A stretch of 64,000 nucleotides of DNA. Origin: Tetradesmus obliquus (lineage: Eukaryota > Chlorophyta > Chlorophyceae > Sphaeropleales > Scenedesmaceae). Every line of letters begins with the position of its first letter. The first letter of the stretch is position 1. Shown in pieces: positions 2,218 through 63,929 of the stretch. Location: the NCBI GenBank assembly GCA_030272155.1, contig CP126203.1, forward strand, positions 1,550,001 through 1,614,000, read 5' to 3'. The position numbers were made by a program, and so were the translations under genes. The notes under the pieces were generated by a model. It was given only the letters and a program-made list of their open reading frames with translations, made no database searches and was not told the DNA's origin.

Positions 2218-2878
2218 ATGCCAGTGAGATCCAGCGGGAGCGGTGCAGCGTCCGCAAAACTGCTTTGAAGTGGCTGGAGCAGTTCATGAGCAGCAATGCC
2301 GAGGGTCAGGCAAATTGCTGGGTCTGGGAAGGTTCAGCGGCGAGTGGAAGAGGCTGTACTGGTAAGGGCGCTTGACCAGGGGCAACAGCGCTCCCAGCTG
2401 CTGTCATATTGCAGAGCCAGTTTTGCAGTGCCCAACGCATGCTGTCCACCTGCTGTGTGAAGCATGCAGCAGCAGAGGAGGCCTCAGTGCTGGAGTGCTC
2501 AGTGCTTAAGGCTTAGTGCTGAATGTTTAACACAGCTCCGGCTGCCGCAGCAGCATGTGCTGCACTGTGGCATGAGCAGCTGCTGGAGTCCACAACCCTA
2601 GACCTAATTCAAGCCACACGCGCCTGCATTGCCTGGTTTCTTGATGCTCGTAATGCATGAGGTCCAGCAGCAGCAGCACTGCACTTTTACAAAACCCGTC
2701 TTTGCTGCTGCTACCGCTGCCTGTGTCTCTGGTCCACCCGCTCTGCACCACTACAACCTTGCAGGATGACTCCAGTGAGCAGCTGCAGCAGTCTATGGAG
2801 GAGGCTGATGGACTGCTGGGGCCGGAGGGGGCCATGTTGGTCCAGCAGGCAGCATCTGCACTCACTTGCTGCGTTGCA

Positions 2879-2913
<35 letters not shown>

Positions 2914-3093
2914 CTTGCAGGATGACTCCAGTGAGCAGCTGCAGCAGTCCATTGAGGAGGCTGATGGATTGCTGGGCCCGGAGGGGCCGGGGTTGGTGCA
3001 GCAGTCTTCCCATTGGCTCAGGACGATGAGTAGGGCACTTCCCTGGGAGGCAGACTCAAAAGAAGCAGGTGGGGCAGGCGGGTGTGGTCTTTG

Positions 3094-3130
<37 letters not shown>

Positions 3131-3363
3131 GTTAGTAGCAGCGGCAGCTGTGTTAAGTCGCCGGGCGCGCAGCAGCACCAGAGCGAATTGAGCCGCTTCG
3201 ATACCAGAGGCAGGCAGAAACCGCAGCGATACAGTGTAGCGGTGCAGGTGGCAGCATGTGTAGCAAGAGCAGGAGTAGGTGAGGAGTTGTGTAGTTAAAC
3301 AGAGTTGCAGCGCAGCAAGATGGTGTAAGGGCACAAGGTACATGAGGCATCCAGTCATAGAGG

Positions 3364-3412
<49 letters not shown>

Positions 3413-6400
3413 TAAATGCGGCTGGGGTTAGTGCAGTATAATGTGCATGCATCCGGATTTGTTTGTTGGATTATTGTGTAATGTGTTTTCTGCCTGCAGA
3501 CACGTTTCTGGAGAGCTCATGGCAACTTAACCTGCTGCTGCCAACAAGGTCGCCGGCTGCGCACTGCTGGCATGTGTTGTTTTGTGTGCCTGCAGGCACG
3601 TTTTTGGAGGATTGATGGCGCCTGCAGCTCCATCTGGGGTGGTTACAAGAGGTGCTGCCATGCATTCAACATTCCAAATTGGTTTTGAAGTTGAATTTGT
3701 CTTTGTGTTGTTCTGACTGCAGGTCCTTTCTTGGAGAGCAGGTGGCGACTTGACCTGCTGCTGCCAAGGTCGCGTGGCTGCGCACTGCTGGCATGTGTTG
3801 TGTTGTGTGCCTGCAGGCGCGTATTTGGAGGATTGGTGGCGCCTGCAGCTGCATCTGGGGTGGTTGCAAGCGGCGCTGCCATGCATTCATAGTTTCCAAT
3901 GTGTTTTTGATCGTCTTTTTGTTGTTGTGACTGCAGGTCCTTTCTTGGAGAGCTGGTGGCGACTCCACCTGCGGCTGCCGAGGGGAGGCGGCGGCGCACT
4001 GCTGGCATGTGTTGTGTTGTATGCCTGCAGGCGCAAACTTGGAGGATCGGTGGCGCATGCAGCTGTATCTGGGGTTGTCGCAAGAGGTGCTGCCATGCAT
4101 TCATAATCTCCAATATGATTCCATTGTCTTTGTGTTGTTTTGACTGCAGGTCCTTTCTTGGAGAGCTGGTGGCGACTCCACCTGCGGCTGCTGAGGGGAG
4201 GCGGCTGCGCGCTGCTGGCATGTGTTGTGTTGTAAAGGGAGATTTTTGTTGTGTGCCTGCAGGCACGTATTTGGCGGCGCCTGCAGCTCCATCTGGGGTG
4301 GTTGCAAGAGGCGCCGCAACACATTCATACTTGCCAATTACATTTGATTGTCCATGTGTTGTGTTGACTGCAGGTCCTTTCTTGGAGAGCTGGTGGCGAC
4401 TCCACCTGCGGCTGCCAAGGTCACGTGGCTGCGCGCTGCTGGCATGTGTTGTGTTGTGTGCCTGCAGGCGTGTAATGGGAGGATTGATGGCACCTGCAGC
4501 TGCATCTAGGGTGGTTGCAAGAGGTGCTGCCATGCATTCTTTCATTCCACAATTTGATTTTATTGTCTTTATGTTGTTTTGACTGCAGGTCCTTTCTTGG
4601 AGAGTTGGTGGCGACTGCACCTGCGGCTGCCGAGGGGAGGCGGCGGCGCACTGCTTGCGTACGAGCGCGCGATGCGTCTGCGCGGCTACGTGGAAAGGGC
4701 GAGCCGCCCCAACCTGCTGGCCCACGAGCCAAGCCTAGACGCTGTGCTGACGTGAGTGCTGCGGCTGTGTTTGCTTGCTTTTAGTTCTGGGGCTTGTGCA
4801 TATTCATGTGCCTGTGGTGTGTCTGCGAGGCTACGTGGAAAGGCCCAGCCGCCCCAACCTGCTGGCACACGAGCCGAGCCTAGAAGCTGCGCTGACGTGA
4901 GTGCTGTGCTCAATGGTTTAGCGCTGCGGTTTCTGCACGCTTGTATGTAAGTTAAAGTGGTGTGGCTGCGGGGCAACGTGGAGCGCGGCAGCCGCTCCAA
5001 CCTGCTGGCACACGAGCCGAGCCCAGACGCTGCGCTGATGTGAGTGCTGCGGCTGTGTTTGCGTGCTTTAGGTGCTGGGTTTGTGCATATTCATGTGCCT
5101 GTGGTGTGGCTGCATGGCTACGTGGAGCGCGCCAGCCGCCCCAACCTGCTGGCACACGAGCCGAGCCTAGACGGTGTGCTGACGTGAGTAATGCGGCTGT
5201 ATGTGGGTTGTTTAGGTGCTGCTGTGTTTGCGGTTTGTGCACGCTTGTCTGTAAGTGGTGCTGCTGCGCGGCTATGTAGCGCGCGGCAGCCGCCCCAACC
5301 TGCTGGCACACGAGCCGAGCCTAGAAGCTGCGCTGACGTAGCGCTGTGTTTGACGGTCGAGTGCTGCGGTTTCTGCACGCTTGTATGTAAGTGGTGCGTC
5401 TGCGCGGCTACGTGGAGCGCGCCAGCCGTCTGAATTTGCTGGCCCACGAGCCAAGCCTAGACGCTGTGCTGACGTGGGTGCTGTGTTTGGGGTCTTGGTG
5501 CTGCTGTGTGTTCGGGCTGTTGTGCGCATGATGCTGCTGGTGGCGTGGCTACGTCGAGCGCGGCATCTGCCAGAACCTGGCGGCACACACGCCGCCAGTT
5601 TACAGGTTCTCTGTGCTTGATGCGCTTGCAGGGGCTCTGGGCAGGCACAAGTTGTATCAGAGATGCTTGGGGAGGAAAAGCAGGTCGTGCTTGCAGGGGC
5701 TTGTGAATACACACACTAAGGTTGTGTTGTTCTGTGTCTGGTGTGCTTGCAGGGGCTCTGTGCAGGCACAAGACATATCAGATCTGCTGGGCGAAGCCAA
5801 GCCGAGCGTGATGCTGGAGGCGTGGGGCGAGGTGCCCCAGCCTGAGCGCGCAAAGCTGCTGCTGCAGTACACACACGTCGTCACAAACGTCAGGTAAACA
5901 TATGTGTGTGGTAGTGCCTGCCGTCAAGTACTTACTCTTTGCAAGATTGTGGTTCTGGCCTTTGTGTCGTGCTACTGTCTAGAAAGGTGTCTGCCACAGC
6001 TTCCGGCGCAGTCTCTGGTGGCTGAACCTGCATCAAGCGTGCCCGGCAAGGCCTGACAGCAGATGTGCATGTTGCTGCTGTGTCTCTGCTGCAGGCAGCA
6101 TCGTTTCATGAGTGTGGGCAAGCTGTCATGAGTGTGGGTAGCTGCTACAGGAACTACACGCTGCATGCTCTCACACACTTGCTGTTTCTGCTGCTGCTGC
6201 TACTGCTGCTGCTGCTGCTGCTGCTGCTGTTCTCCTGCTGCAGGCAGCATGGTTTCGCGAGTGTGGGCAAGCTGTCATGAGTGTGGGTAGCTGCTACAGG
6301 ATCTACACGCTGCATGATCTCACACACTTGCTGTTTCTGCTGCTGCTGCTACTGCTGCTGCTGCTGCTGCTGCTTTTTCTCCTGCTGCAGGCAGCATGGT

Positions 6401-9290
6401 TTCGCGAGTGTTGGCAAGCTGTCCCCCCACAGCCCCCTGGGGCAGCTGCTGCTGCATGGGCTGCAGCTGATGCTGGGCATGGCCTTTGACGGCAGCATAC
6501 GCCAGCAGCTGGAGAGCAGGCTGGGCAGGTGCGTTACATAACAATGTAACAACTTTTAAATTTGTAGCCATGTTTGACTTTTGTTGGGATGTGGTACTTG
6601 CAGCAGCCTTCCGGCGTACCATTTCTGGTGGCAGCAATCTTGGGCAGCAAGTGTATTATGCAGCTTTATAACAGCTCCATAATAGGCCTTTGAAAACTAC
6701 TAGCCCTGTGTGCTGCCCTGCCGCACATTCTGCTGTTCTTCCTCATTGTCTGTCCTGCAATACTGCTCAGACGTACCTAGACCGTCACTCACCTGCCTGT
6801 GCTCTGCGCTGCCGAGCATTCTCTTCTTTGCTCGCTGTTGTATGCTGCAGCGCTGCTCGGCTGTAGTTTTTGACCAGCGTTGACCTGTATGTGCCGCTGC
6901 CCTGCTGTGCCTGCTGTGTCCCTGCTGCCCTGCCACCTGTCCTGCAGTGCTGCACGGCTCTACTTTCCTAACATGGAGAAGGGCCGGCTGCAAGCCCTCT
7001 ACCAACACAACAACAAAGCAGGCCTCCTAGGAGGCCAGATTGCCCTAGCTGGCCTGACGGTGCCCCTGCCTCCTGCAAGCAGCCAGGTAGGGTGTTTCCT
7101 GCAAGCATGCACAACAGTCCTGTGTCGTATGCGCCTGATTCATGCGTGCTATATGCTCTGGAACAGCTGCTGTCACTCGCGGTTAGACTTTTGGTAGGCC
7201 TGGCAGTGCCCGTGCCTCCTGCAAGCAGCCCAGTGAGTTTCTGTTTCCTGCAAGCATGCGGACAATCTGCTTCTTGCTTGCTTTGAGCATGCACTGTGTA
7301 AGTTCCTCTGTTGCTGCTGCCGCCTGTTTGCGTCTGTTTTGTGACCCTACTGATGTCTGCATCTTCTTTTACTCATGCATATTGTCATTTTCACCGCATG
7401 ATGTTCATGCAAATCGTCATGTCACCTCCAGCATCTCCTGCAAGCGCAGCCATTGACCTCCGTGTGACTTTTTCCCGCCGTGCAGCTGCCCATGTTTGAC
7501 CAGCTGAGCCTCAGCTGCCAGCTGTCATTTGCAAGTGACGTCCTGCAGAGGCTGCTGTGCAAAGAGTGAGTCAAACCCTGACACCCTGCACTCGCCAGCA
7601 CTGGTCTACATGAGCGCTGCTGGGCATGGCAGACTGCTTTCAAAGCTCACCACTGTCAGTCCAATGTGTCAAACATGCTTGCACCAAACTGCTTCCTGCA
7701 GGCATGTAATGTGACCCAGCAGCCATCTACATCTCTCAGATGCACACATACAAACATTTCTCATGTGCGCATCACCTGCTGCAGCAGCTCCGCTTCTTTG
7801 GTCAAACTCTCATGTGTGCATCACCTGCTGCATCAGCTCCGCCTTTTTGGTCAAACTCCTACTCATTTTTGGTCCAGCTCACTGACCTCCACCTTTCCTT
7901 TACGACCTTTGCACAACCTGCTGCTGCACATGCTCTGCAGTCAGCCGCTGCCTGATGACCACGCGCTGAGCTTTGCAGCTTTTCAAAAGCTGCTGCTGCT
8001 GGGGCTGCTAGCCCCGCTGGAAGAGGCCACAGCAGCAGCAAGCGGCCGCAAGGGAGGCCAGCATGTAGCGCTGGCAGCAGCACGGGCAGACAGGCAACGC
8101 ATTGCAGCGGCGCGGCAGGTGTGGCAAGTGTATGATGACCCTTCAACTTGCCGATTGTCGGCCTTAGTGTTATTTCAGGGTTCTGCATCCTAGCTCTGTT
8201 TTGGGTTCGATTGCACAGCAGTGTCCGGCTTTACGTGGCAAGCCACACTTTGCTGCTTGGCTCTGCTTCTTCATGATGCAAAGCTGGGTCAATCTTTTGT
8301 TACATGTGTTACTTGGGTCAAAGTAACGCTGCTGGTGCTGCGTCTGCCTGCAGGAGGAGCAGCAGGGAGCTGCTGCAGCAATGTGCGAGGCTGTGCAGCA
8401 GCTGCGGTTGGTTTTGTATGAAACAGTAACACAGCACGCACAGATCGGCCAAGCAGCACTGCAGCTGCTTGCTGCAGAAGCAGCAGCATCAGCAGGCTCT
8501 GCCAAGCAGCAGCAGCAGCAGCAGGTGCAGCAGGTTGTGCAAGGCGTGGACTTGGCAGCGCTGTGCTCACCAAGCCGCAGCAGCAGCAGCCAGCAGCAGC
8601 AGCAGCAGCAGCAGGCGCTGCTGCAGGCTTGCATGGCGGCTGCATGGCCCACAGCCATCCAGCCTGCAATGTTCACAGAAGAACCAGGTAGCTCCAAGCC
8701 AGAGAATCAAGCAGCAGGAAAGCAGCAGCAGCAGCAGCAGGATAGACAGCAGCAGCAGCAGCAGCAGGAGTCAGGTGTGGCACGGTTGATGGAAACTGTG
8801 CAGAGCATACCCAGCATTAGCACACAGCAGCAACAGCAGCAGCAACAGCAGCTTCTGCCAGAGCAGGAACTCATATCAAGTTTGTCGCAGCTGTTATTGA
8901 AACAGTACGGGGCTACCAGCAGCAGCAGCAGCAGCAGCAGCAGTGCTAGCACGACTAGCAGTATTGATGCAGGATCAGCAGCAGCAGCAGGTAGCGCAGC
9001 ATGTTCACTCAGCTTACAGAAAATAGATGGCAGCCTGCAGCTACAGGGGTATGTCGGGCATGCGTGCAACTTGCTGCTGCTGCGGACCCTTTCAGAAGCC
9101 CCAGCCTGTAGCTCTGCTGCTTGGACTGAGGACAGCATGGTGCAGCTTCTGGAGTTGCTGTTAGACGTTGAAGCAGTAAAGAGTCAGGCAGCTGAGGCAG
9201 CATATCAAGCTGAGGTGAAGGTACAGATGGGGACTTTCCTAGCCATGCAGCAGGAAGCAGATGGCGGCAGCAGCAGCAGTGCGGCAGCAG

Positions 9291-9336
<46 letters not shown>

Positions 9337-11629
9337 GCAGGGTCAGCAGCAGGTGCTGCAGCAGCCTGTGCATGTTATTCTTGTGAAAGGCTTGATCGAC
9401 ATGATCCAGCGCATGCGTTTGTTTAAGGAGCAGTTGCTGCAAGATCCAGAAACTGCTGCTGCTGCCAGCAGCAGCAGCAATGCGCCGCCATCATCAGCAG
9501 AGCCAGCCGCATTTCAGCTGAAAAATAAGCAGCAGCAGCGGCAGAACGGCAGGAATGTCAGCAGAACACAAGAGCAGCAGCGACAGCAGCAGGACAGCTC
9601 AGGCCCTCAGTCTTTGAATGCACGGGCACGAGAAGCAGCTCAGCAGCAGCAGCAGCAGCAGCAGCAAGCTTACAGCTCTGATGATGATGCGGATATGCAG
9701 CAGCAGGCGGCTGCCGCAACAGCAGCAGCTGCTGCTGCCGTTGCTGCTGCTGCTGACAAGGAGGACTTCTGGCGGCTGCAGGCAGTACAGTTGTACCGCA
9801 GCAGCAGGCCTGAGGGCTGGCGGTGGCTGGGTCAGCACTTTGAAGATGCCAGCAGTAGCAACAACCAGCCTGGCTTCTGGGGCTTGGTGAGTTTTGAGGG
9901 TTTTGGGCTGATAACAACCTGAACCTTAGCCAGATGCTGCAAGCGGTGGTCAAGCAGCACCATCCGTGTCATGCTCATCACCTCAAACTCGGTATGTTTG
10001 CGAGCTGCTCCTGCAGCTCTGCTACTTCCTGTCATTGGAGTAGATCTCATCTGCGCTTCCGCAAAGCAGGTGTTGTGGCCTCCGCTGCTGCTGATGCTGA
10101 CATACATCTGCATCCTGCTGACATACACCTGCTTGCTGCTGCTGCAGGTGCGCTACATTATGTCATATGACCAGCTGAACCTGCACTTTCTCGAAGCAGG
10201 TGTTGTGGCTCCCGCTGCTGCTGCTGCTGACACATACTCGCATGCTGCTGCCGCTGCTGCTATCACTGCTGCTGCTGCTGCTGCAGGTGCGCTACTTCCT
10301 GTCATACGACCAGCTGAACCTGCGCTTCCGCGAAGCAGGTGTTGTGGCCTCCGCTGTACGAGCTACCTGGAAGCAGCCAGGCTGGAACCCCCCTGAGAAT
10401 GAGGCGGCAATTGGGCTGCTCAGCAGGCAGGCGGCCCGTTGCGCCAACAAGATGCAGGCGCTGGCTGCGGTACAGGCAGGCACCTTTTGAAGTTTGTTAT
10501 TGTGTTACTTTTGTGCCAGTTTGAAATAGGATGAGATGTCACATCGTTGGTGAATGAGGCGGCAATTGGGCTGCTCAGCAGGCTGGCGGCACGCTGCGCC
10601 AACAAGATGCAGGCGCTGGCTGCGGTACAGGCAGGCACTTTTTTGAAGTCTGTTATTTTGTTACTTACTTGTGCCAGTTTAAGTTAGGATGGCGTGTCGC
10701 ATCGTAGGTGGCTGAGGCGGCAATTGGGCTGCTCAGCAGGCAGGCGGCACGCTGCGCCAACAAGATGCAGGCGCTGGCCGCGGTACAGGCAGGCACTTTT
10801 TTCGAAAGTTTGTTATTGTGTTACTTTTCTGCAGCTTTTGTGTTACATAACTTGTTGCACGGCTGACGAATGACAAGGAAGTGGAGCAGACAGGCGCCGC
10901 GCTGCGCCAACAAGATGCAGGAGCTGGCCGCGGTACAGGCAGGCATTTGAAGTTTGTCATTGTGTTACTTTTGCCGCTTTGTTTTGTAATGGCTGTTACC
11001 TTGTTGCTGGATGTTGAGGAAGACGCGCAGCTGAGCAGGATCGCGCAGCAGCGAGCTGATCAGGTTGACACTTGCACCCCTGATCTTTTACTGCTGTGTT
11101 TGGTTGCAGTTTGTGCGTTGCCGGATGCAACACCAGCAGCACCCATCAGGCATGCATGCCGCAGCCAGCATTCATGAATGAAACCAGTGCCGCTGCATCT
11201 CAGTCTGCCTGACTCTATGCCCGGTCGCTGCTGCTGCTGCTGCTGCTGCCTGTTTGTTTCTTGCAGCATTCCATTATGCCAGTGTGGCCAGATTCCAACC
11301 CCATTGCTGCCGGCTCCCTAGCAGCGCTGCTGCAGCTGGCCTGCCTATCCGGCAGCGCCCCTTGCCTGCTAGCCTATTGCGACCTGAAGCCAGCCGCAAA
11401 AGCAGCAGCAGCAGCAGCAACAGCAGCAGCGCACAGCAAGGGCAGCAGCAGCGGCAGCAGCACACGCGCGCCGGCTGCTAATGTCGTGTACCCAGATCCT
11501 GACATGGTCAGTGATGACGATGATGACGATGCTGCTGCCGTCTTTGAGTCGCCGCTGACCAGCCCAGCCGGCAGAGTTGCTGCTGCTGCTGCTGCTGCTG
11601 ATAATGGTGATGCCTTTGAAGAATGCCTT

Positions 11630-11668
<39 letters not shown>

Positions 11669-12951
11669 GGGTTCCTGTCGCCTTCAGCCTCGTGTGAGCT
11701 AGCAGCAGCGAGTGCTGAAGACAGCAGCACAGACGGCAGCAGCAGCACGCAGAAGGAGGCTTTTGGAGCAGCGCTGGCAGCAGCAGCAGCTGCTGCCGTA
11801 GGGGGCAGCAGCAGCAGCAGCAGCAAGGCGGCTGCGTCTGGCGCTGCAGATGCTGCTGCTGCTGCCGCTGCTGTGCAGTGGTCTGGATCTCCGCTGCATT
11901 TGAGTGTGTGTGTTGCCCTGGGGCCTCTTTTTGAGGAAGCGCAGCAGGGGCCCTGCCTTACAAGGCTTATGCAGCTGCTGGTACAGTATTATGCTGACAC
12001 ACATGCAGCAGCACACCAGCTGGGGTCAGTGCTGGAGCAGCAGCTGCAGCAGCAGCAAGGCAGCAGCAGCTATGCGCATAGGTACGGCAGCAGCAGCAGA
12101 ACAGCAGCAGCAGCAAAGCAGCAGGCAGCAGATCTGCCTGGCAGCAGTAGGCTGCTGGTGCTGCTGATGGGGCTGTATCACCTGGAGATGCGCAAGCAGC
12201 AGCAGCAACAGTGGCAGCAGCAGCAGTGGCTTGCGCGGCAGCGGCAGCGCGGGCGATCCGCACAGCTCAGCAGCAGCAGCAGCAGCAGCAGCAGCGTTTA
12301 CGAGGACCAAACTATCAGGCTGCAGAGCTGTTTTGGAGCCGCTCACTATGCAGGTCAGTTGTCTGACCTGCTGTGGTATTGCACCCTGCAGCCGGATGCA
12401 ACAGCCGGCCTCAGCAGCAGCAGCAGCAGCAGCAGCAAGGACGTGTGCCCGATCGCGTCGGAGCTGATGCATGAGCACCTAAACCTGCAGCACAGGTTCA
12501 AACCTGCTGACTGCACACTGCTCAGCAAGGTCCCTGGCGACAGGCGCAATGACATGTTGCTAGGGTGCTGGCTAGAGGGTTTTGGAGATCCAGCAGAGGA
12601 GGTTATAAAACCGCGGTTCCGCCAGGATCTGGATTGCTGGCGTGCGCTCAGTGAGACCTGCGACGGCTGCGGCGTGCGCGGCAGCAGCAGCAGGCCGCTG
12701 CAGCTGTGCGTGCGCTGCGAGTGTGCCGTGCTGTGTTGGAAATGCATCGCATCGGAGGGACACCCAACAGAAGCGTGCAGCGAGTTATTAAACCTGCAGG
12801 ATGATTTGCGGGAGGCGCAGCAGTACAAGCAACTCGAAATGTGCCGCTGTAACGACTGCATCAGCCGCCGGCTGGTGCAGCTGAGGGCGTTTGAGATGCG
12901 GCCTAGATTCTCGCCGCTGCAGCAGCTGCTGGTGCCCTGGCAGCATTGGCT

Positions 12952-54046: not shown

Positions 54047-57000
54047 GCTGCTGCTGTGCAACAGGCTGGCAGCGAGGAGGGGCTCAAGAACTGCCTGCGC
54101 TTCAAGCTGGACATGCAGGCGGGCAACAAGGCGCTGCGCGACCCCGTGGCCTTCAGGTGCAACCTGACACACCACTGGCGCACAGGCCACGCCTACAAGG
54201 TGAGGGACAGGGCTTTTGGTCTCTTTATGTAGTGCAACTGGTGTTGCATTCCACGTAAGAAGCAGCTGCTGCAAGCAAGGGGCACAGAGTCATATCACAG
54301 CTTACAAGGTGAGTTTGTATATGCACACACTACCCTGGCCAAAAGCGGAGGCTAGTTAGGCCGGATTTGACCGGCCCCTGAGCCAGCCTCCTGTCGAGCT
54401 TAGGCACAGCACAGCCCAGGAGCTGTTTCTTGGGTGAGCGCCGCGATGCACCCGAAAAGTGCGCATGAACAGGACGCTCAATCCACAGCCCCACAACCCG
54501 GTGTTTATGCAACTTTTCCATGCCTTGGAGGCGTGACTGTGTGATGTGGTTCCATGTAACACTTTTGTCCTCTTAAACCACCGTCACATTATTACAGTCC
54601 TGGCTCCGTTGGCTCCGCCCTCTGCTTCGCACGTCAATGGCGCCAGATGCACAAAGGTTTGTCTGCCATGCACTGCGGCCTGACCCACGATGCCTTTGGC
54701 GGTATGCGGCATGACGCGTGCCGCTCTTTTGCGTTATGGGTGAGGTCACAGTGTATGGCAGGTCAACCTGTGTGCGTCTGGTGCTGCTGTCAAGTCAAGG
54801 AGAGGGCGGGTGTGACAGCGACAAGGGGTTTGCATCCACAGCTGCCCGTGAACCGACTGCTCACTTGTTGTGCACGGCGTGTCTCGTATTCCTGTGCACA
54901 CACCACAACACCACGCCAGGTGTACCCCACGTACGACTGTGTGTGCCTCTTTCTCGATGCGCTGGAGGGCGCCACGCATGCACTGCCATAACAGAACATG
55001 TTATTTCACGTAGTGTTCCAATGTTTCCGTCTCCTTTCTCATCTGCAGCTGCCCCGGTGAACTGATTGCTCGCTTGTGGTGCACCCCCTGTCTGCCTGCC
55101 CGGGTTTCTGTCTACAACACCACGCCAGGTGTACCCTACGTATGACTTTGCGTGCCCTTTTGTGGACGCGCTCGAGGGCGTCACACACGCGCTGCGCACC
55201 AGCGAGTACAAGGACCGCGAGGCGCAGTACTACTGGATCCTGGAGCAGCAGCAGAAGGTGTGGCCGGGGCTGCCCAAGGTGCACATCTGGGACTACAGCA
55301 GGTGAGGCAACTTTATGTTGAGTGGAGCTGATAGGCTGTGCCATCACAGTACAGTGCATATGTACAACAGCTGTTTGGCTGCATCGACGTCATAAAACAA
55401 ACAATACTTGGTTGTTTTGTGCTGTTGGGTGAGTGTGGATGTGCGCGCGTGCCATCACAGTTTGACGTTTGTGATGTGGCTGGCTCTGGTTGTGGTAGCG
55501 CGTCCATGAAATTGCTTTGCTGCAGTGAGGATAGCTTTCTCAGAGGTCACGACCACTGACGATCACTCACAACTCCTACTCATTCTGAGCAGCAAAGCCA
55601 AGTGTCAAGAGCTACTTTAGCAGCTCAGCGTTACATGTTGTTGTATTTGCTGGCTGGCTGTGTAGATTGATGGATTCTAAATTGGCAGTACACCACATGC
55701 TGCAGCAGGTCCTTCCATACTGTGTTTGTCTCATATTTACATCTAGTACTGATGTTTGTGTGTGGGAGTGTCGTCCATTGTGTGGTACGGCGTGGTGCTG
55801 TGAGGAAGAACCTTGGCAGAGATTTCACTGTGAAGATCAACTCTACTCCTACTCATTCTGAGCACCCTGTGATTGTTAACTCGCACTGGCACGCCACATC
55901 CTGTGGAGGCGCACCGTGCAAAACCATCTGTGGTGCGCGCTGCTGCTGTGGAGCGCACCTTGGCTGCTTGATGGGTCCCCTGCACTCACTCAGCAATCGC
56001 CTTATTATGTTCTTTTGCTGCTGCTGCCGCATCCTGCAGGCTCAACTTCGTGTACACCGTGCTCTCCAAGCGCAAGCTCACCTGGTTTGTGCAGACCAAC
56101 CGTGTGGACGGCTGGGACGACCCGCGCATGCCTACAGTGCAGGGCATCTTCAGGCGGGGCCTGCAGGTTGAGGCGCTGCGGGAGTTCATCCTGAGCCAGG
56201 GGGCCTCGAAAAATGTAACATACCAGGAGTGGGACAAGATCTGGACGATCAACAAGAAGCTGATCGACCCGGTGTGCCCGCGGCACACCGCCGTGGCGGC
56301 GGCTGGCAAGGTGCTGCTGACGCTGGAGGGTGAGTGGCGGGCTGCGGCGGGCGCTGCTTTCCTGCGAGTGTCCTGCAAGCTGTGATGCAGCATGAGTGAG
56401 GCTGTGAGCAAGTTGGTTGCCCGTTGGATGTTGTGCGCCTGACTGCAAGCAGACAGCAGCGGTCGCCTCCAGCAAGCTACTTTGCTGGTCTGGCAGGCCG
56501 AAGATCGGCGGCTGCAGGGCTCCTGCACATTTCCTGCAAACTGTTGATGGCCTCCTGCATGCCGCACTTGTTGTTCAAGTACTTCCTGCAAGCGATGGAT
56601 GCCTGGCAGAACCTTCTTGTGTAACGTCTGCCCAACAGGATATCTGCTTATAACATGCTCGACACTGCTGCTCAAGTGCCCACCCTGCTGCTGCTGCTGC
56701 TGCCCGCAGGTGCGCCCGCCAGCCCTGAGTCCTCCACCATCGCCAAGCACAAGAAGAACGCTGCCGTGGGCAGCAAGACGCTGCTGAGGCTGGGCCGGGT
56801 GTGGCTGGATCAGGCGGACGGGCAGGAGGTGCAGGAAGGGGAGGAGGTCACGCTCATGGACTGGGGCAACGCCATCATCAAGGTGCGCTGGAAGATGATG
56901 TTAACCATCATTTCAGGTTGTACCCAAAATGTTTGAAGAGTAGCAGCATCTAGCATTGGAGGCGGATGGTAGGGTGTGCATGTGTGTTGCGTCTGGTGTG

Positions 57001-58344
57001 CGGGCTGGAGGTGCGTTGCGGTTGTGCTGCCTGGCTGTTGGTGTGTTTGGGTGTGGCTGGACCAGGCTGATGGCCAGGAGGTGCCCGAAGGGAGGCAGGT
57101 GACGCTCATGGATTGGGGCAACGCCATCATCAAGGTGCGTTGGGCACCTTGAAACAGGGCACTTCACTTCAGGATGTTGTGCTGTCGCTTGCTAGCATCA
57201 AGGTCGCAGTGCAGGGCATTTACAGCTGTGTTGTGATTGCTGGTTCGCAAGACTCTTGGGGGGTATTCTTTGTGGATGTGCATTGCCGATGCTGTTGTGT
57301 GCGTACTGGGTCGCGGCAGCTGGTGGCTATCGTGTTGGCAGCTGGCGTATGGTGTTGCCATCATGAGGCAAGCTGTAGATAAGGCCAAGTTGCAGTATTA
57401 GTTGCATTGTTAGTTTGCTGTTCAAAGGTTACTGCTGCCCGCCCTGTGAGGACAACATCACGTTGTAATGTTGACGCGGCTGCTCCCAAAGCAGCTGGGG
57501 TGATGCTCCGAAAAGCGATTCTGAGGGCTGCAACCTGCATCTGTGTCATTTTGCCTTTTTATGTCGTCTCAAGTGATGAGGTGGCAGCAAAAACACTTAC
57601 ATTACATATCCGCCCCACTTCCTCGTGCATCATGCACATCTCACGCTGACTGCACCTGTTTTCCTGCCTTCTTTCCTGCAGTCCGTGAGCAAGGGCCCGG
57701 ATGGCCAGGTCACTGGCCTGACAGGGACGCTGAACCTCGCAGGAGACTTCAAGAAGACGCGGCTCAAGCTGACGTGGCTTGCTGACGTGTCTGAGCTGGT
57801 GCCGCTGACGTTGACCGACTTTGACTACCTCATCACCAAGAAGAAGGTACGCTGCTGCTGCCTGGTTTGCGGTACAGCTTGTGGGACTAAAGAATGGGGC
57901 GAATGGCTGGTGCTTCTTTACGGCTGTTGCCTGCTTGCTCTTATGAGCTGATGGGTGGCAACTGGTATAGGCATGCCACAACATTCGCAAATCAACGTGC
58001 CACTGCTAAAACTATGCTGGTGGAGGAGGACGATGATTTCGAGCAGCTGGTCAACCCCACCACCACGGTTTGATGCGTTTACTCTTGTTAATGTCAGGGT
58101 TCCAGTCTGACCACATCACTTGCGCTGCTTGCAGGTTGAGGAGGACGATGATTTCGAGCAGCTGGTCAACCCCACCACAAAGTTTGAAAGCGCAGCGCTG
58201 GGCGACGTCAACATGGCGGCCCTGAAGAAGGGCGACCTGCTGCAGCTGGAGCGCAAGGGCTACTTCATCTGCGACGTGCCGTATGGCGGCAGCGCGGACA
58301 AGCCTGCGGTGCTGTTCAGCATACCCGACGGCCGCACAAAGTAA
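49652..58344 (+). CDS. Glutamyl-tRNA synthetase, cytosolic (EC 6.1.1.17)
   Basis: Fourteen exons join in phase: 49652-49818, 50012-50114, 50319-50472, 50926-51099, 51661-51815, 52280-52405, 52729-52806, 53645-53722, 54065-54199, 55129-55301, 56040-56329, 56710-56882, 57682-57846 and 58135-58344. The product is 726 residues, near the ~720 of plant cytosolic GluRS. It charges tRNA-Glu with glutamate using ATP. The N-terminal ~170 residues form a GST-like domain ([20 protein letters not shown]). A Lys/Ala linker follows. The class I catalytic core has [20 protein letters not shown] (HIGH at 229-232), [14 protein letters not shown] and the KMSKS-equivalent VLSKRKL (about 455-461). [16 protein letters not shown] and the C-terminal beta-barrel anticodon-binding domain ([24 protein letters not shown]) complete it. 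The ATG at 49652 has a CCACC context. No transit peptide is seen, so the cytosol is the likely location. Its introns host snoRNA candidates. Confidence 0.97.
50526..50601 (+). repeat. Donor-side copy downstream of GluRS exon 50319-50472
   Basis: TGGCCATCTGGGGGCAGCTG and the GGTGAGCG donor repeat the exon end about 120 bp downstream. Confidence 0.92.
51384..51600 (+). repeat. Two acceptor-side copies upstream of GluRS exon 51661-51815
   Basis: GCAGATGTCGGCTCATTTGA and the following ~60 bases, encoding [16 protein letters not shown], occur from about 51384 and 51513 before the true exon at 51661. Both carry usable CAG acceptors. The second extends into CCACCTGAGCCC before diverging just short of the HIGH motif. 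Confidence 0.93.
51990..52154. repeat. 165-bp structured intronic repeat, copy 1
   Basis: It lies in GluRS intron 5 and matches copy 2 (54332-54496) at 164 of 165 positions. It folds on paper: GGAGGCT/AGCCTCC encloses GGCCGG/CCGGCC with loop ATTTGA. A rival stem is CCTGAGC/GCTCAGG, and a second domain has GAGCG/CGCTC around GCAC/GTGC. An ACAGCA word lies between the domains and ACA lies near the 3' end. That layout is reminiscent of an H/ACA snoRNA, but a SINE-like or other structured RNA is equally possible. Confidence 0.7.
53092..53178 (+). ncRNA. Box C/D snoRNA candidate, copy A (GluRS intron 7)
   Basis: Terminal stem TGGGCT/AGCCCA (53092-53097 and 53173-53178, overlapping the last base of box D) brackets C box GGGATGA (53098-53104). 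D' CTGA is at 53122-53125, C' GTGACGA at 53134-53140 and D box CTGA at 53170-53173. The 14 bases GGTTGAATTTCTTC (53154-53167), two bases before box D, are complementary to GAAGAAATTCAACC. That is a conserved stretch of eukaryotic large-subunit rRNA as I recall it. The D+5 rule would place 2'-O-methylation on the second A of GAAG, probably the site called Am2220 in yeast. Confidence 0.8.
53385..53471 (+). ncRNA. Box C/D snoRNA candidate, copy B (GluRS intron 7)
   Basis: This is a second copy 293 bp downstream of copy A. The 81-bp core is near-identical, with changes confined to the bases between D' and C' (ATT to TTC). Boxes are C GGGATGA 53391-53397, D' 53415-53418, C' 53427-53433 and D 53463-53466. 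The stem is TGGGC/GCCCA and the same 14-base guide lies at 53447-53460. Confidence 0.8.
54332..54496. repeat. 165-bp structured intronic repeat, copy 2
   Basis: It lies in GluRS intron 9, just after a duplicated donor junction (TTACAAGGTGAGTTT at 54302). The single difference from copy 1 is C to T at 54401, which keeps a G-U pair in the CCTGAGC/GCTYAGG stem. No target-site duplication is seen. Confidence 0.7.
54830..55128 (+). repeat. Acceptor-side copy upstream of GluRS exon 55129-55301
   Basis: CACCACGCCAGGTGTACCCC at about 54911 begins a diverged copy of the exon start ([16 protein letters not shown] against [16 protein letters not shown]). The preceding intron segment (GAACTGATTGCTC / GAACCGACTGCTC) is also repeated, so the unit is about 215 bp. 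Confidence 0.88.
55514..55598 (+). ncRNA. Box C/D snoRNA candidate, copy C (GluRS intron 10)
   Basis: A perfect 10-bp terminal stem GCTTTGCTGC/GCAGCAAAGC (55514-55523 and 55589-55598) brackets C box variant GTGAGGA (55525-55531) and D box CTGA (55585-55588). A D'-like CTGA lies at about 55556. The bases before box D, ACTCCTACTCATT, contain CTCCTACTC. This is complementary to GAGTAGGAG in the conserved LSU rRNA segment ACGAGTAGGAGG (recalled, one mismatch nearer the box). Confidence 0.72.
55794..55866 (+). ncRNA. Box C/D snoRNA candidate, copy D (GluRS intron 10)
   Basis: Same C box GTGAGGA (55800-55806), D box CTGA (55858-55861) and guide CTACTCCTACTCATT as copy C. The terminal stem differs: GGTGC/GCACC (55794-55798 and 55862-55866). 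Two different stems that are each self-complementary around the same boxes argue for a selected RNA structure. Confidence 0.72.
57035..57134 (+). repeat. Donor-side copy downstream of GluRS exon 56710-56882
   Basis: The exon end, encoding [11 protein letters not shown] and [10 protein letters not shown] with its GTGCG donor, is repeated about 250 bp downstream. A few substitutions change the protein meaning (VPEGRQ for VQEGEE). Confidence 0.92.
58018..58075 (+). repeat. Acceptor-side copy upstream of GluRS exon 58135-58344
   Basis: GAGGAGGACGATGATTTCGA and the next ~30 bases repeat the exon start 117 bp upstream. The copy ends in ACCACGGTTTGATG. Confidence 0.92.
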
Positions 58345-59929
58345 ATGTGTGCAAGCTGCCGAATGGCTCCAACGCACGGTGTCGCGCTTGGCGTGTGCTG
58401 CTGTGAACTTGAGAGGCGCTAAGCTATTTTGCTGCGTGCAGCACCGTGTTTCGTGAGCGCGAGGGTTTGCTGCAGCAGGCGGCCTGACAACGCTTGTTGC
58501 ATGTACATACTACAAAAGCTTTCTGCTGTTGCTGTACACGCGTATTGCATACTCATCATCCATGTGGTTTGGGTTTTGTGGTTCTGGCACATGGGTTTGT
58601 TGCTGTTTGAATGCCTGCTGTTGCTGCGCAAGCTGCTGCAGTGTAATCAAGAGTGGTGTTGATGGGATTGCCATGCTCTTCTGGAGCGCCATAACCTGCA
58701 TTAATTGGCCTGCTTGGACGCTATAACCCTTATATACCATAAGCACTGCAGAAGTGCTGTCAGTGCATGTGTTGTAGTCCACCTTGGACCTTCCCTAACG
58801 AAAGATTCACAGTGTGAGTCGGTGGTGTTCACCTGGTAATGAGAGAGGATAGTTACAAGTGGGTCCTGGCACCATCTTGGATGGTATGAGCCACAACAGG
58901 TTGAAATGGTAATGGTTTCACATTATGCTGGTCAACATAAGTTGAGCTTAAACTGGCCAATATCACTATGTCATGCACGCCGCGATGATTGACCTGCTTG
59001 CACGTTGTACCTTACATTCTACCTGTACTGACGCACTCATGACCTAGGAGTTACTGTTATATAATACGGAACTACCACATGCCTGTACTGTCGGGGGAAG
59101 AGTAGGTGCTCATACACCAAGGAGGTATCCTCACTGCATATAACACATCCCATACGATCACTCGCACGTGACGATGGGGAGCGCTGAGCGCCCGTCGTCT
59201 GATAAAGGACGACAAAATTTACAACAGGCCATGCATGGTCAATAGGACAATCAACTTTGAATGACAGTGGTACGAAACGGTAAAGCAGGCATACACATTC
59301 CCCCATTACATGCAATTTACACTACTGCCACTCCTGCTTCTTGCGAGGAAAACTTCAACTTCAATCTGAGCTACGGTGTCAACCAAGTGGCGTCACTGAC
59401 AAGGTGTCACTACCCAGGCTACCAAGGACTACAAGAGGATGGAAGGCTGTCAGTGCCGTTGCCCCCGAAGGGCATCGTGGCTCTTCGGGACGGCGCTGAC
59501 CAGGTGTTATTATGGTTGCAGGTAATACTAGACGACGTAGGAGCAGAAGCAGGAGCTGCACATGCTAATCTGAGGTTCAGCAGCCACGGTGGCCTTTCGG
59601 GGGACCACTTCTTGCCATGTGAGTGCGCATTATGTTGCATGATGCTGATGCTTGTAATGAATGCAATTCGGCAACTTTCCTTATACGTTGTACCAATTTT
59701 ATACGCAGCAGCTCGTCGAACAGCTCCCTGGGCAGGCAAGGCTCCAGCAGCACAGGTCTGGCCGCATCAATCACACCTAAGCCAGTGTGCCGCACAGTAG
59801 CCGCTGCGCCTGCTGCAGCGCTGCCTTGCAACTGACGCTCGTCAGCCATCTTCGTCCATCATGCCTGTCAGTATGGTTGAAACTGCTTCCAGACAGCAGA
59901 CTGTATGCGATAGCCGACCAATGGTTGCA
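58345..59929. other. Convergent intergenic region with weak candidate exon
   Basis: GluRS (+) and the right-hand gene (-) converge here. A TGTAA at 58642-58646 may end GluRS transcripts. A minus-strand open stretch at about 59812-59650 includes DAARPVLLEPCLPRELFDEL, which looks protein-like but has no joined partner. The stretch 58790-59400 is relatively A/T-rich and otherwise featureless. Confidence 0.35.
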
Positions 59930-60421
59930 TGCTGAGGTCCTTGGCAGCCTACAGTACGCTGATCCACACTTCAGAGTTTGGTTCGCTGCTGCTGTCGCCT
60001 GCTGCAACAGCCATCTCCACAGCAGAACGAATGCATGCTGAGGTCCTTGGCAGCCTACAGCACGCTGATCCACACACCAGAGTTTGGTGCGCTGCTGTTG
60101 CCCTTGGTAACAGCCATCTCCACAGCAGACCAGATCCTGTAGCTGACCGTATGCCATACGGTGCAGCATGATGCTGAAGTCTTTGATTGGCAGCTCACAG
60201 CACGCTGATCCATACACCAGAGTTCGGTTCGCCGCTGCTGTCGCCCTTGGTAATCGCCATCTCCAAAGCAGACCAGATCCTGCAGCTGGGTAGTGTGTGT
60301 CAATGCCCGAATATGCACCCTAGAGTTGTGAGCCGCCTTGACGCAGCTGAAAATACTGTACAAACAAAGGCAGCCAAGCACAAGAAGCACCTGCGTGCGT
60401 GCCAAGGCCACCCCTGGCAGC
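59930..60421 (-). repeat. Three stop-side copies downstream of the last exon of the right-hand gene
   Basis: The exon end, encoding YRIWSAVEMAVTKGNSSAPN then SGVWISVL-stop, recurs with left ends at about 60190, 60055 and 59940. The first copy is about 240 bp from the original and the others about 125 bp apart. Confidence 0.88.
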
Positions 60422-61068
60422 TCACAGCACGCTGATCCACACTCCGGAGTTTGGTGCGCTGCTGTTGCCCTTGGTAACAGCCATCTCCACAGCAGACCAT
60501 ATCCTGTAGCTCGGGTAGTGTGTGTCGATGCCCGCGTATGCACCCCAGAGCTGCGAGCCGCCTTGTGTTACGCAGCTGGCCCCTGGCTTGATCAAATTGA
60601 AGGCCGGCGCTGCTGCTGCTGCTGCACTGCTGCTGCTGCCGCTGCTGATGGGTATGGTGGAGTAAGCTACACCAGGGTAAGCAGGGGTGCCGCTTCCATC
60701 GGGCAAGTGACGGATGCCGGCGTAGCTGTATGTTATTAACATGTTATTTCCCCGCACAACCACCTGCGGGAATGCGAGGCCAACTGGATCCGACTTGGCT
60801 CTTGCAGCAAAGTCCAGCACTCCGCTGTTGGACACGACGGCGCCAAATGTAATCGTGTTGTCAGCCACCCAGTTGGAGTAATACTTGCAGGGGTTGACGC
60901 TCGGCTGAATATCAATATTTATGTTGTTTTCGTAGTGGGCCTGGCTCCAGTAGGAATAGTAGTCGGAATAGTACCACGGGAAGCTCCAGCCAAGGAAACC
61001 ATTCCAGATGAATGAAGCCGCCCCAAGCAGCAAAAAGCCGCTTGCAGTCACTGTGGCGTTGCTCGCCG

Positions 61069-61136
<68 letters not shown>

Positions 61137-61891
61137 GGCGTGGTCAGTGCTGCAGCATTATGACCGGCCGGAGTGCCGCCGCCACTGCTGCTGCTGCTGC
61201 CGCTGTTGTTGTCTGCTGGCTTTCTGAACATGATGTGAGGGCCTCCTCCTGCTGCTCTGGCAAGCTTCAGCGCCTGCCTGTACTGCTGCCGCGCAGATGC
61301 AGAGGCACCTGCCTGCAAGCCCGCTGCAGACACAGCAGGCGCCGCTGCTGCTGCTGCTGCATGTGCTTGCTGCAATGCCATCGCTGCACGCAGCTGCTGC
61401 CGGCTGGTTATGGGGCCGGCTTGGCTCGATGCTGAGTCAGCAGCAGCAGCTGCAACATTGGCAGGCAGAGGCACTCCCAGGGTATCCCTTGCTGCTGCTG
61501 CTGTTGCTGCTGCTGTCAGCCTCCTCTGACTGCTGCTGTCGCTGCTCCTGCTGCTGCTGCTGCTGCTGCCCTCCTCATGCAGCCTCCTCCCTGCGCCTTG
61601 CCCCGGATACACATACATCCTGTTTGTGTAGTAACCAGCATCAGAGTACATGCTTCTGCCCCTGTCACTGTTGGTTGCCCATGTGCCCGTAGCCCAATCC
61701 CAGCCGCTGCTCCAGCCCCAATTGCTGCCAAACCAGGGGGCGCAAGCTCCAGTTATGCAAAAGGAGGGATTCACCATGCCCCACCAGATTGTGGGCTGCA
61801 GCTGCTGGTATGCGTTGAGCATGTCAGGTCCTCGGTCGGCAAGGTAGATGCGGTCCGCATAGAGTACCGCCTGTGGTGGCAATGCAAGTGT

Positions 61892-61944
<53 letters not shown>

Positions 61945-63089
61945 GGTGAGAAGAAGTGGTGGGCATGTCGGGCCTGCTGTTGGCAAGGTAGAGGCGGTCT
62001 GCACAGGGCACGGCCTGAGGTACAAATGGCACTGTGCAGCAGCAGCCTTGAAACCTTACTGCCATGCACTCACCCCTCCGTCCCAAAACCCTGGGGGCCG
62101 TGCAGCGCCAGCATGCAGCGTGCCGCACTGCTCAGGCTGCTGCAGCTGCGTTTCCTGAGGCTTGATGAGGCAGGATGTGCCTCGGGGGTTGATGCGGGTG
62201 ACCAGCAGGGGTGATGGTGACTGGCTGTGCGGCCCTTCGTACAGCCACAGGCTGCCTGCAGCAGGAAGGGGATCATGACAGTGTTACTGATTGTTACATT
62301 GTTACTGTTATAATATAAGCGTAACTAGTGACAATCAGCTGCACTGATGCGGGCGACCAGCAGGGGTGATGGTGACTGGCTGTGCGGCTCTTCGTAGAGC
62401 CACAGACTGCCTGCAGCACATAGGGGATCATGACAGTGTTACTGATTGTTACATTGTTACTGTTGTAATGTAGGCGTAACTGGTGACAATCAGCTGCACT
62501 GATGCGGGTGACCAGCAGTGGTGATGGTGACTGGCTGTGCGGCCCTTCATACAGCCACAAACTTCCTGCTGCGGACAGTGTGCAGAGCTCGATGACATCG
62601 TGCTTTGTGTTCGACTAATGTGCACGAATGTGCATGGCTGCTGTTCGCTTGACTCGAGATGCGGTGTGTGGAAGAACGGCATGTGCAACCCTCCAGTTTT
62701 GCTTCAATTGTGTGTGAATGTGACATGGCGTCACCATTCCACCCGTACTGGTATACAAAGGTGAGCACCATCTGCAGCTGCCATACCAGCTGTACTGCCA
62801 GCCGGCAGTACTGCCATGCCAGCTGGCAGTACTGCCATACCAGCTGCCATGCCAGCTGGCAGTACTGCCCTGCCAGCCGTGCTGCTGCAGAGGCCTAAGC
62901 CTCAACTTACCCAGGAGCTGCAGACCTGCCTGGGTTGTCACTCACTACGCAGATGCTGCAGCTGCCATGCACCATAGCATGCACACGTACCTGTGTTGAT
63001 CAGCGCAGTGAGAGCCAGCTCTGTTCGCTCAGCCCCCTGCTTCTCATACCGGGCATAGTCAGTCCAGTAGGCGATGAGCTGCAGTGTCA

Positions 63090-63130
<41 letters not shown>

Positions 63131-63929
63131 GAGTTAATGTGAGTCCCGCGTGTCTGCCTGTTCACTCTCTGCTCCTCATACCGGGCATAGTCAGTCCATT
63201 AGGCAATGAGCTGCAGCAGCAGCGGCAGCAGCGTGCAGGTGAGAGCAGCAGCAGCAGCAGCACCAGCATGATTGCTTGGCGATTTGCATGTTGCTGTGGG
63301 ACCTTTGGCATTTGCTTCAAAACATGCACACCAGATCAGCAAAATGGGAGATCATTTCAGCGTCTGTTTTAACAATGAAACAACCCTTTGCCCCGCACTC
63401 ACGTCTGTGACAAAGTAGGCAACCTCAGCAGCAACGTCCGCTTCTCTCTGCGGCTGCTGTGCATGGTTTCCGGAACTGTGGCTGCTGAGCAAAGCTGCCG
63501 GGTAGCAACACCACACTTCACCTACCTGGCTTTGATCCGAAAGAGCCGCAGTGGGGTGGTGAGAAGGAGACAGCATAAGCAAAAAATAAAATCCCACACC
63601 CCAAAATCATTGAAGTAGGCCACTTCAGCAATGAAAATGATTCCTTTTTTGATGACTCACGTCTGTCACAAAGTAGGCCACTTCAGCAGCAACGTCCGCT
63701 TCCCTCTGTGGATGCACCGGCTGCATCTGCACAAAGGCCATGGGCGGGTAATCATGCAAATTGCCATGGTAGCATGCCGCCTTTTGCACATCATATGCGG
63801 TCCACACAGGCACCCAAAAGTAGGTGGCGCCGCGGTATGCTGCCCACTTTGGCAGGGCGTAGAGTACTGCGCCGGTGGCTGAGAAGGGATCGTCGGGGCA
63901 GTTCTGGACGTAAGATATGAAGACACCAT
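60422..63929 (-). CDS. Unrecognised Trp/Tyr-rich protein, 5' end beyond the window
   Basis: In-phase exons are 63929-63661, 63078-62991, 62925-62911 (15-base microexon), 62255-62074 and 61870-60422, giving about 667 residues of C-terminal sequence. Upstream exons are outside the window. Segments include DDPFSATGAVLYALPKWAAY, AYWTDYARYEKQGAERTELA, LYADRIYLADRGPDMLNAYQ and an aromatic GSNWGWSSGWDWATGTW. Four Ser/Ala tracts separate it from a C-terminal part with YYSDYYSYWSQAHYENNINI and PGASCVTQGGSQLWGAYAG. Scattered single cysteines and aromatic, Asn/Gly-rich stretches suggest an extracellular or vacuolar protein, but no signal peptide is visible because the start is missing. I do not recognise the family. 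The stop codon TGA overlaps a possible GTGAGC donor, so the true last exon could differ. Confidence 0.65.
62330..62560 (-). repeat. Two acceptor-side copies upstream of exon 62255-62074
   Basis: Units of about 145 bp repeat the exon start (encoding SLWLYEGPHSQSPSPLLVTR) and the adjacent intron with its TGTTACTGATTGTTACATTG word. Copies lie at about 62340-62415 and 62495-62560. Confidence 0.9.
62785..62885. repeat. Palindromic short tandem cluster
   Basis: The 12-bp palindrome GGCAGTACTGCC occurs at 62804-62815, 62825-62836 and 62858-62869, interleaved with the palindrome TGCCAGCTGGCA. It lies inside an intron of the right-hand gene. Confidence 0.85.
63160..63235 (-). repeat. Acceptor-side copy upstream of exon 63078-62991
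   Basis: CTCATACCGGGCATAGTCAG and the following bases up to GAGCTGCAG repeat the exon start and acceptor about 140 bp upstream in the sense of the gene, separated by a (CAG)n run. Confidence 0.88.
63395..63635 (-). repeat. Donor-side copies downstream of exon 63929-63661
   Basis: CACGTCTGTGACAAAGTAGG and the next ~45 bases repeat the exon end with its donor at 63400-63460. A fragment (AAGTAGGCCACTTCAGCAAT) lies at about 63614. Confidence 0.88.

Follow-up and report, generated by a model that had tools for sequence, protein, structure and literature searches.

Short direct duplications were found to be frequent in the genes of the green alga Tetradesmus obliquus, where nearly all of the units that could be classified straddle the edge of a coding exon. 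The window, by which we mean the whole stretch of 64,000 nucleotides analysed (assembly GCA_030272155.1, contig CP126203.1, positions 1,550,001-1,614,000), had been described in a sequence-only reading as carrying tandem copies of exon edges in almost every gene. Self-comparison of the window gave 80 direct high-scoring segment pairs (HSPs) within 1 kb, forming 37 loci with a step of at least 90 bp; no inverted HSPs within 1 kb were observed and one block-shuffled control of the window gave no HSPs. Among the 26 loci that lie in five genes with anchored models (46 exons), 23 straddle one splice edge, two straddle a stop codon and one is confined to an intron; the other 11 loci lie outside those genes. 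The exon-edge duplications are therefore real, and the first extra splice edge is located exactly at position 2765, where the pattern had been said to start. We favour, with moderate confidence, the explanation that short direct duplication is ongoing, that the extra copies are skipped, and that the constrained half of each pair keeps it recognisable and expandable.

Extent of the duplications

The pattern was confirmed to be general in the regions sampled. A total of 116 direct loci (step at least 90 bp) were found across 324 kb on eight contigs, comprising the window together with four blocks of 50 kb and three of 20 kb. Each of the seven regions outside the window, all on other contigs, contained direct loci, one of them only two. 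The only inverted pair within 1 kb in the 324 kb was a 66-bp palindrome in block C1, and the shuffled controls were empty. The density of loci is uneven, with 37 in the 64 kb of the window, 2 in 50 kb of block C2 and 18 in 20 kb of block C16, and the duplication load therefore varies strongly by region. The C16 stretch (C16:1500001-1520000) is the densest in the sample. The C2 stretch (C2:3000001-3050000) contains intron-bearing genes yet only the two tandem loci, and none was found in its anchored gene for a NEDD8-activating enzyme (7 exons).

The count of edge-crossing against wholly internal duplications, which had been proposed as a check, was made in 11 anchored genes with 96 exons. These genes hold 46 loci, of which 20 straddle an acceptor, 19 a donor and 4 a stop codon; two are complex, one is confined to an intron and none is internal to an exon. 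Of the 96 exons, 39 have at least one duplicated edge. Each of the 39 simple splice-edge loci has a single copy that spans one exon edge, its remaining copies lying inside the same intron. Units made of a whole exon with both splice sites were not observed in any of the 44 simple loci, the two complex loci being outside this count. Extra splice-edge copies number 45 in the 23 loci of the window and 77 in the 39 loci of all anchored genes, with one to six per locus, the same count that the sequence-only reading had given. The step ranges from 106 to 293 bp with a median of 134 (46 anchored loci, window and other blocks) and is evenly distributed modulo 3 (15/14/17). As an example, exon 3 of gene 1 (4589-4751) is preceded by four acceptor-side copies and followed by four mapped donor-side ones, and the intron at 4752-5752 is nearly all covered by two edge arrays.

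The exon part of the nearest copy is 0.75-0.98 identical to the intact exon in the 39 loci, and therefore the duplication process has been long-running and is recent too. This range of ages, the direct orientation and the presence in all seven further regions agree with the frequent short tandem duplication that had been suggested. The suggested intron growth was likewise borne out: collapsing the copies reduces the intron bases of the 11 genes from 41,437 to 29,675, which means that detected copies form about 28% of the intron sequence. Furthermore, single intact exons suffice to encode the anchored proteins (in gene 5 from residue 183 onward), and the intact edge gives each protein in frame, as expected from the claim that splicing preserves phase. 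Acceptor-side copies were also observed to lie upstream and donor-side copies downstream, as had been stated. This polarity is not evidence, because tandem duplication across an acceptor can only place the partial copy upstream, and across a donor only downstream.

Placement of the duplicated units

No locus was internal to an exon among the 46, against 11.6% expected (P=0.0035), and this avoidance of exon interiors is attributed to selection. Start-codon edges were likewise absent from the 46 loci. Only one of the 40 loci that are either intronic or single-edge is confined to an intron, where 47% would be expected in the collapsed genes (P=2.6e-10), and this sole pair consists of snoU36a small nucleolar RNAs (snoRNAs). 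Intergenic DNA was observed to hold 3 loci in 57 kb, all of them in block C3, and genic DNA 83 in 207 kb (P=1.8e-6). Duplications are thus not equally common between genes, a point on which the sequence-only reading had made its own claim depend.

The units have the splice site at their centre, reaching into exon and intron alike. Their exon part measures 28-90 nt (median 62) and their intron part 30-203 nt (median 77) in the 39 loci. Exon parts shorter than 28 nt were not observed, where 8.3 would be expected (P=5e-5). The standard deviation (SD) of the exon fraction of the unit is 0.135 against an expected 0.272, and none of 20,000 simulations gave a spread as narrow.

Stop-codon edges were found to be duplicated at four simple loci and in part of one complex locus in the 11 genes, and therefore splicing is not the sole route to a harmless extra copy. 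Related proteins end at the same residue in seven of the seven best cases for P0121, four of seven for P0148 and one of six for P0144, while P0138 and P0211 are without a usable relative. The stops of P0121, P0148 and P0144, three of the five stop loci, thus look real in these comparisons. A reading of the stop loci as misread donors, considered because the stop of gene 3 overlaps a GTGAGC, was dropped for these three since their relatives end likewise. The claim that all places are exon/intron edges holds for most of them; the exceptions are 43053-43724, a stop-codon edge confirmed by relatives, and 59926-60578, a stop-codon edge by annotation only. Slippage in CTG/CAG runs was also rejected as the driver, with mean runs of 5.4 nt at the junctions against 6.6 nt at random intron sites and of 3.7 against 4.7 nt for exon breakpoints.

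Fate of the extra copies

In the 16 arrays with at least two extra copies (53 copies), 175 copy-specific changes were observed to fall 59/55/61 over the three codon positions. The changes that set the intact exon apart from all copies of the same arrays fall 5/6/24. The extra copies of arrays therefore drift neutrally beside a constrained exon, and a candidate constraint on the copies (copy-copy pN/pS of 0.47) was not upheld once copy-specific changes were isolated. Neutrality is less clear for single copies. The splice dinucleotide (AG or GT/GC) is kept in 72 of the 77 copies and in-frame stops occur in 9 of 72. If the nearest extra site were used, the exon would stay open and in frame at 3 of the 35 loci examined. 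Together with the even codon positions of array copies, this gives little support to the suggestion that the copies are a source of new exons; extension of exons in frame was rejected on the same figure and on the even step modulo 3.

Single-copy and multi-copy loci were found to differ in their flanks. Beyond 10 nt from the edge, the intron showed no significant homology in 15 of 22 single-copy loci (three are borderline), with the exon part of those 15 being 76-98% identical, whereas 14 of 17 multi-copy loci have a homologous intron flank. Of ten alignments inspected, at least four lose the match within the splice consensus (gtgagt, gtgcg, gtgg or cag). Divergence of the array copies is 0.146 in the exon part and 0.199 in the intron part and is lower for the exon in eight of nine arrays, after 68 unalignable pairs were dropped. 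This decides nothing, as it fits both repeated copying from a constrained exon and conversion. Strict budding from the exon end was rejected, identity dropping weakly with distance (slope -0.013 per rank, P=0.10), as was a second gene copy acting as donor sequence, with one locus found for COX15, the gene in which this was checked.

A young array of 4.58 units in a Clp-protease gene (P0144), the last copy of which ends at GTGAGT, suggests an expansion from two exon-edge repeats. In exons 6-7 of CSP41 (joined block L019-L023, 47285-47627), a stretch of 64 bp from exon 6 and its acceptor recurs at 100% identity across the start of exon 7. It alone looks like an intron gained by tandem duplication, unless the annotation is mis-spliced there. 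The complex locus in exons 6-7 of P0148 may be of the intron-gain kind.

Possible explanations

In the explanation that we favour, the genes of T. obliquus undergo repeated duplication of segments some 100-300 bp long, in direct orientation and next to the original. A duplication inside an exon would alter the protein and be lost, and one across a start codon, of which none was seen, would add an upstream ATG and probably be lost as well. Where an acceptor, donor or stop is duplicated, the gene models show that the intact edge is always the one still attached to the exon body, with the partial copy falling outside the coding sequence. Splicing would run from the first donor to the last acceptor, a choice in line with exon definition and suggested by the protein models. 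The extra copy would then drift neutrally, as it does in the arrays, and the functional copy would stay constrained. With its functional half unable to diverge, an edge pair would stay similar far longer than a noncoding pair, and this lasting similarity would permit recombination, with arrays growing by unequal exchange and perhaps being partly refreshed by exon conversion. Noncoding pairs would lose their similarity and vanish from view. The outcome would be that surviving duplicates are found at coding edges, where they make up more than a quarter of the intron length in the genes examined. A role of constraint is suggested because stop-codon edges are hit, the sole intronic pair is a snoRNA pair, the exon part is never shorter than 28 nt and, in 15 of 22 single-copy loci, the intron flank has no detectable homology where the exon part does.

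Several observations weigh against this explanation. When the anchored exons were masked, 23 of the 45 edge loci were still detected, which implies that equally old, purely intronic pairs ought to be detectable too; the control is not airtight, as recovery came mainly from arrays. Intron-only loci nevertheless stood against edge loci at 1 to 23 under masking (P=5e-6), and a relaxed search (E 1e-3) added one intron-only pair, CAG-rich and 736 bp apart. Persistence by constraint may thus be insufficient to account for the deficit of intron-only loci, and it leaves unexplained why no intron part is shorter than 30 nt where 6.7 would be expected (P=3.5e-4). In addition, the differences in the 22 single-copy loci fall 28/28/83 over codon positions, and this third-position excess (83 of 139) is greater than the 50% maximum for a neutral copy beside a constrained exon (P=0.014). 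The single copies might reflect conversion of the exon half, copying of the exon edge only, or former exon ends. Of the three we favour conversion, a putative process here.

A tentative alternative is a process of the coding edges themselves, in which units centred on a splice site or stop would be copied repeatedly out of the functional exon into the flank. The exon half would be held by constraint and conversion while the intron half diverges, the edges would drive intron growth, and some single copies would once have been real exon ends. We regard it as unlikely that a duplication machinery is aimed at coding edges, with breaks or template switches falling some 60 nt inside the exon and some 75 nt inside the intron. 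Such aim would account for the deficit of intron-only loci with or without masking, for the excess of genic over intergenic loci and for the narrow exon fraction of the units. However, duplications also affect stop-codon edges, which shows that splice signals cannot be the whole target, and CTG runs are not enriched at the junctions (other motifs were compared by eye only). Since one half of each edge pair is constrained, part of the edge bias must also be one of visibility. Even duplication that is merely filtered, as in the sequence-only reading, where copies are tolerated only if splicing skips them, seems improbable. The intact coding sequence of the anchored genes and the absence of exon-internal loci support that part of the claim, but introns and intergenic DNA should tolerate duplications no less readily and yet contain almost none (one intron-only locus in 40, three loci in 57 kb). 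The placement of units is also non-uniform, and stop-codon edges require no splicing.

That some extra copies are present or past alternative exon ends under coding constraint is very improbable. The skew of the single-copy loci beyond what a neutral copy allows, the matches that stop at a splice consensus and the wide retention of splice dinucleotides would all be expected of such ends, and differences at P0138 E1, the P0145 E3 acceptor and donor, the P0144 E6 acceptor and P0121 E5 sum to 0/2/27, these five loci having been picked after looking. Against this stand the lack of codon-position bias in the copy-specific changes of arrays, frameshifting gaps in 5 of the 22 single-copy loci, the in-frame stops and the rarity of open in-frame use given above, and the glutamyl-tRNA synthetases (GluRS) of three relatives (P0002-P0004), which by eye are without inserted repeats. 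Mobile elements or introner-like insertions with target duplications could have left the non-matching spacers of 26-197 nt that separate the similar stretches in 20 of the 39 splice-edge loci. Two of the 20 spacers were searched genome-wide and each matches only itself, five spacers find matches elsewhere in 264 kb solely through CTG-type runs, and the unit is specific to each locus, so that we give this origin hardly any credence. An assembly or sequencing artefact is just as remote. Tandem repeats are a classic source of misassembly, but the exon parts of nearest copies are 2-25% divergent and the steps vary by locus, and therefore these are not assembly stutter; the assembly also joins 104.7 Mb in 17 contigs.

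Genes and loci of the window

Gene 1 (2296-13531, + strand) encodes an 874-residue protein in 11 exons (869 of 869 codon pairs identical in the spliced alignment of P0127) and has eight edge loci. Single acceptor-edge copies are found at 2765 before exon 2 (2921-3068; locus 2758-3004, step 156, exon part 84) and at 5632 before exon 4 (5753-5893; locus 5610-5810). Acceptor-edge arrays precede exon 3 (3481-4658; extra edges 3723, 3937, 4150 and 4374, step about 215-222), exon 5 (6391-6528; array 6070-6423, extra edges 6095 and 6244, step 149) and exon 9 (10287-10475; array 10004-10356, extra edges 10017 and 10148). On the donor side, the array after exon 3 (4673-5594, step about 145) has mapped extra edges at 5039, 5183, 5337 and 5473 with one more near 4897 (tblastn), the single copy at 7233 after exon 6 (6948-7086; locus 7051-7259) has lost its splice dinucleotide, and the array after exon 9 (10397-10980, step 155) has extra edges at 10630, 10788 and 10938.

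Gene 2 (35448-40946, - strand) encodes an MFS transporter of 687 residues in 10 exons (P0125, 676 of 682 codon pairs identical). Its donor-edge arrays follow exon 9 (36274-36505; array 36042-36363, extra edges 36177 and 36057) and exon 4 (39141-39235; array 38500-39202, five extra edges from 39004 to 38508, step 125). Gene 3 (43574-47361, - strand; P0121, 438 of 441 codon pairs identical) encodes 445 residues in six exons, and a T. obliquus relative, P0135, is named fucosyltransferase. The stop-codon copies of its exon 6 lie at 43053-43724 with a step of 259, the seven best relatives being those that end at the same residue. Acceptor-edge copies are located at 44528 before exon 5 (44241-44375; locus 44293-44544, 93% identical) and at 46265 before exon 3 (45984-46144; locus 46082-46360), and a donor-edge array follows exon 4 (45588-45777; array 44769-45666, six extra edges from 45443 to 44778, step 134).

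Gene 4 (49652-58344, + strand) encodes the cytosolic GluRS of 726 residues in 14 exons, 721 of its 726 residues being those of T. obliquus A0A383W857 (P0001), and six of its exons have edge copies. Donor-edge copies are found at 50593 after exon 3 (50319-50472; locus 50401-50600) and at 57134 after exon 12 (56710-56882; locus 56797-57143). Acceptor-edge copies occur at 53956 before exon 9 (54065-54199; locus 53921-54109), at 54920 before exon 10 (55129-55301; locus 54833-55195) and, with the splice dinucleotide lost, at 58020 before exon 14 (58135-58344 including the stop; locus 58015-58187). An acceptor-edge array precedes exon 5 (51661-51815; array 51380-51733, extra edges 51385 and 51515). 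The intron-only pair of two snoU36a C/D-box snoRNAs is located in intron 7 (53089-53471, + strand; members 53093-53177 and 53386-53470, 95.6% identical, 203-nt spacer, 67 bits each). A non-tandem 171-bp stretch was also noticed in introns 5 and 9 (51984-52154 and 54326-54496, + strand, 98.8% identical). It has exactly two copies in the 104.7-Mb genome, gave no Rfam match up to E=1 and has a fold z-score of -1.7.

Gene 5 (60425-63957, - strand) encodes a 577-residue protein, of which residues 183-577 lie in the window on five exons (P0138, 369 of 389 codon pairs identical; a spurious 3-nt exon was removed and the start of the last exon was set by hand). The copies at the annotated stop of its last exon lie at 59926-60578, where the stop overlaps a donor-like GTGAGC (about 60418-60430) and no relative was found as a check. 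Acceptor-edge copies are located at 62014 before exon 4 (61785-61870; locus 61816-62046) and at 63210 before exon 2 (62991-63078; locus 63037-63262), and an array precedes exon 3 (62074-62255; array 62190-62572, extra edges 62410 and 62565, 92% identical). The donor-edge copy at 63403 after exon 1 (63661-63957; locus 63397-63715) shows six differences, all at third codon positions, and its homology ends at gtgagt. A 35-bp minisatellite between genes (41896-42171, about eight copies, 97% identical) belongs to a class distinct from the edge duplications. CAG/CTG runs are very abundant in coding (poly-Gln, poly-Ala) and intron DNA, for example at 8573-9365, 26791-26871 and 61069-61135.

Methods

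The assembly analysed has 17 contigs and 104.7 Mb. Self-comparisons were made by BLAST with simple repeats filtered, a locus being a set of direct HSPs within 1 kb with a step of at least 90 bp; the count of inverted pairs leaves out overlapping palindromes. Gene models were anchored by our own spliced aligner on annotated T. obliquus proteins, and an independent search returned the same GluRS exons (14 of 14). The 11 anchored genes lie in four regions, of which the window contributes five, C1 two, C3 three and C2 one. The alignment is end to end for 10 of the 11 proteins; P0138 is cut by the window edge and has one hand correction, and it was excluded from the codon counts behind the array, pN/pS and in-frame-stop figures and from the 35 loci of the in-frame-use test. 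The null model collapses introns by detected copies only, and the placement test used 44 of the 46 loci, excluding the two complex ones. Intergenic DNA was taken as that outside predicted or anchored genes, with two window stretches set as genic by eye. The borderline flanks of P0121 E5, P0138 E2 and P0001 E9 were taken as homologous in the codon-count tally. Hand sums gave the totals for single-copy loci (28/28/83), the number of frameshifts and the figures for the five picked loci.

Relation to known systems and significance

Among published cases, the nearest is a potato RdRp gene, where a tandem duplicate of an intron end and exon head is described as having made a new intron (PMC4974935). 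The likeness lies in a short direct duplication within a gene that is tolerated through splicing, and the acceptor class, with 20 loci, is the comparable one here. The two differ in that a new intron and exon piece arose there, whereas no new intron is seen in our simple loci, the other copies are wholly intronic and 39 of 96 exons are affected. The Exonize survey of 20 genomes distinguishes 'partial', 'inter-boundary' and 'intronic' internal exon duplications and finds generally fewer in lower eukaryotes (PMC12343006). Its classes likewise comprise exon pieces copied within a gene, into introns too and including degenerate ones. Exon-derived sequence in an intron of the same gene, which defines the inter-boundary and intronic classes, was found here in 77 copies at 39 loci. 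Edge-centred tandem arrays, their placement and the neutrality of copies are absent from the passages on Exonize that we consulted.

Mutually exclusive exons also present repeated exon sequence beside an exon, but there whole exons with both splice sites are repeated, and here partial exons with one site. Introner elements are an intron-building process in algal genomes and form dispersed families. Unlike them, the unit here is specific to each locus, and the sequences searched genome-wide (two spacers and the 171-bp repeat) are not dispersed. Tandem duplications in plants reportedly arise from patch-mediated repair of double-strand breaks, as Vaughn and Bennetzen proposed in 2014. These are similarly short, direct and tandem, with or without filler, and are a common natural type of insertion; they are not known to be tied to coding edges. 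The breakpoints in T. obliquus are too old and diverged for a repair mechanism to be read from them.

No description of the pattern was found in the literature searched, which included portions of the Haematococcus and Sphaeropleales genome papers and of the DOE0152z announcement. What we observe is an unusually intense variant of intragenic short duplication with an unexplained placement bias. In a published comparison of five green algae (PMC5966456), T. obliquus has the longest introns, with a mean of 462 bp where the other four range from 230 to 302 bp, and the edge copies may help to explain this length.

Few cases of intron gain by tandem duplication are proven, and here edge duplication is present at 39 of 96 exons in one genome. 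With divergences from about 2% to 25% and a functional exon beside each fossil, the copies form a dated record of gene growth, from which it can be measured how large natural short duplications are, how often they arise and where they fall. It also becomes testable how the spliceosome ignores intact-looking decoy sites located 100-300 nt from the real site. Gene finders may call the copies as exons, as the simple finder used here did. If a process of the coding edges is the true cause, every coding edge would be a small engine of intron growth.

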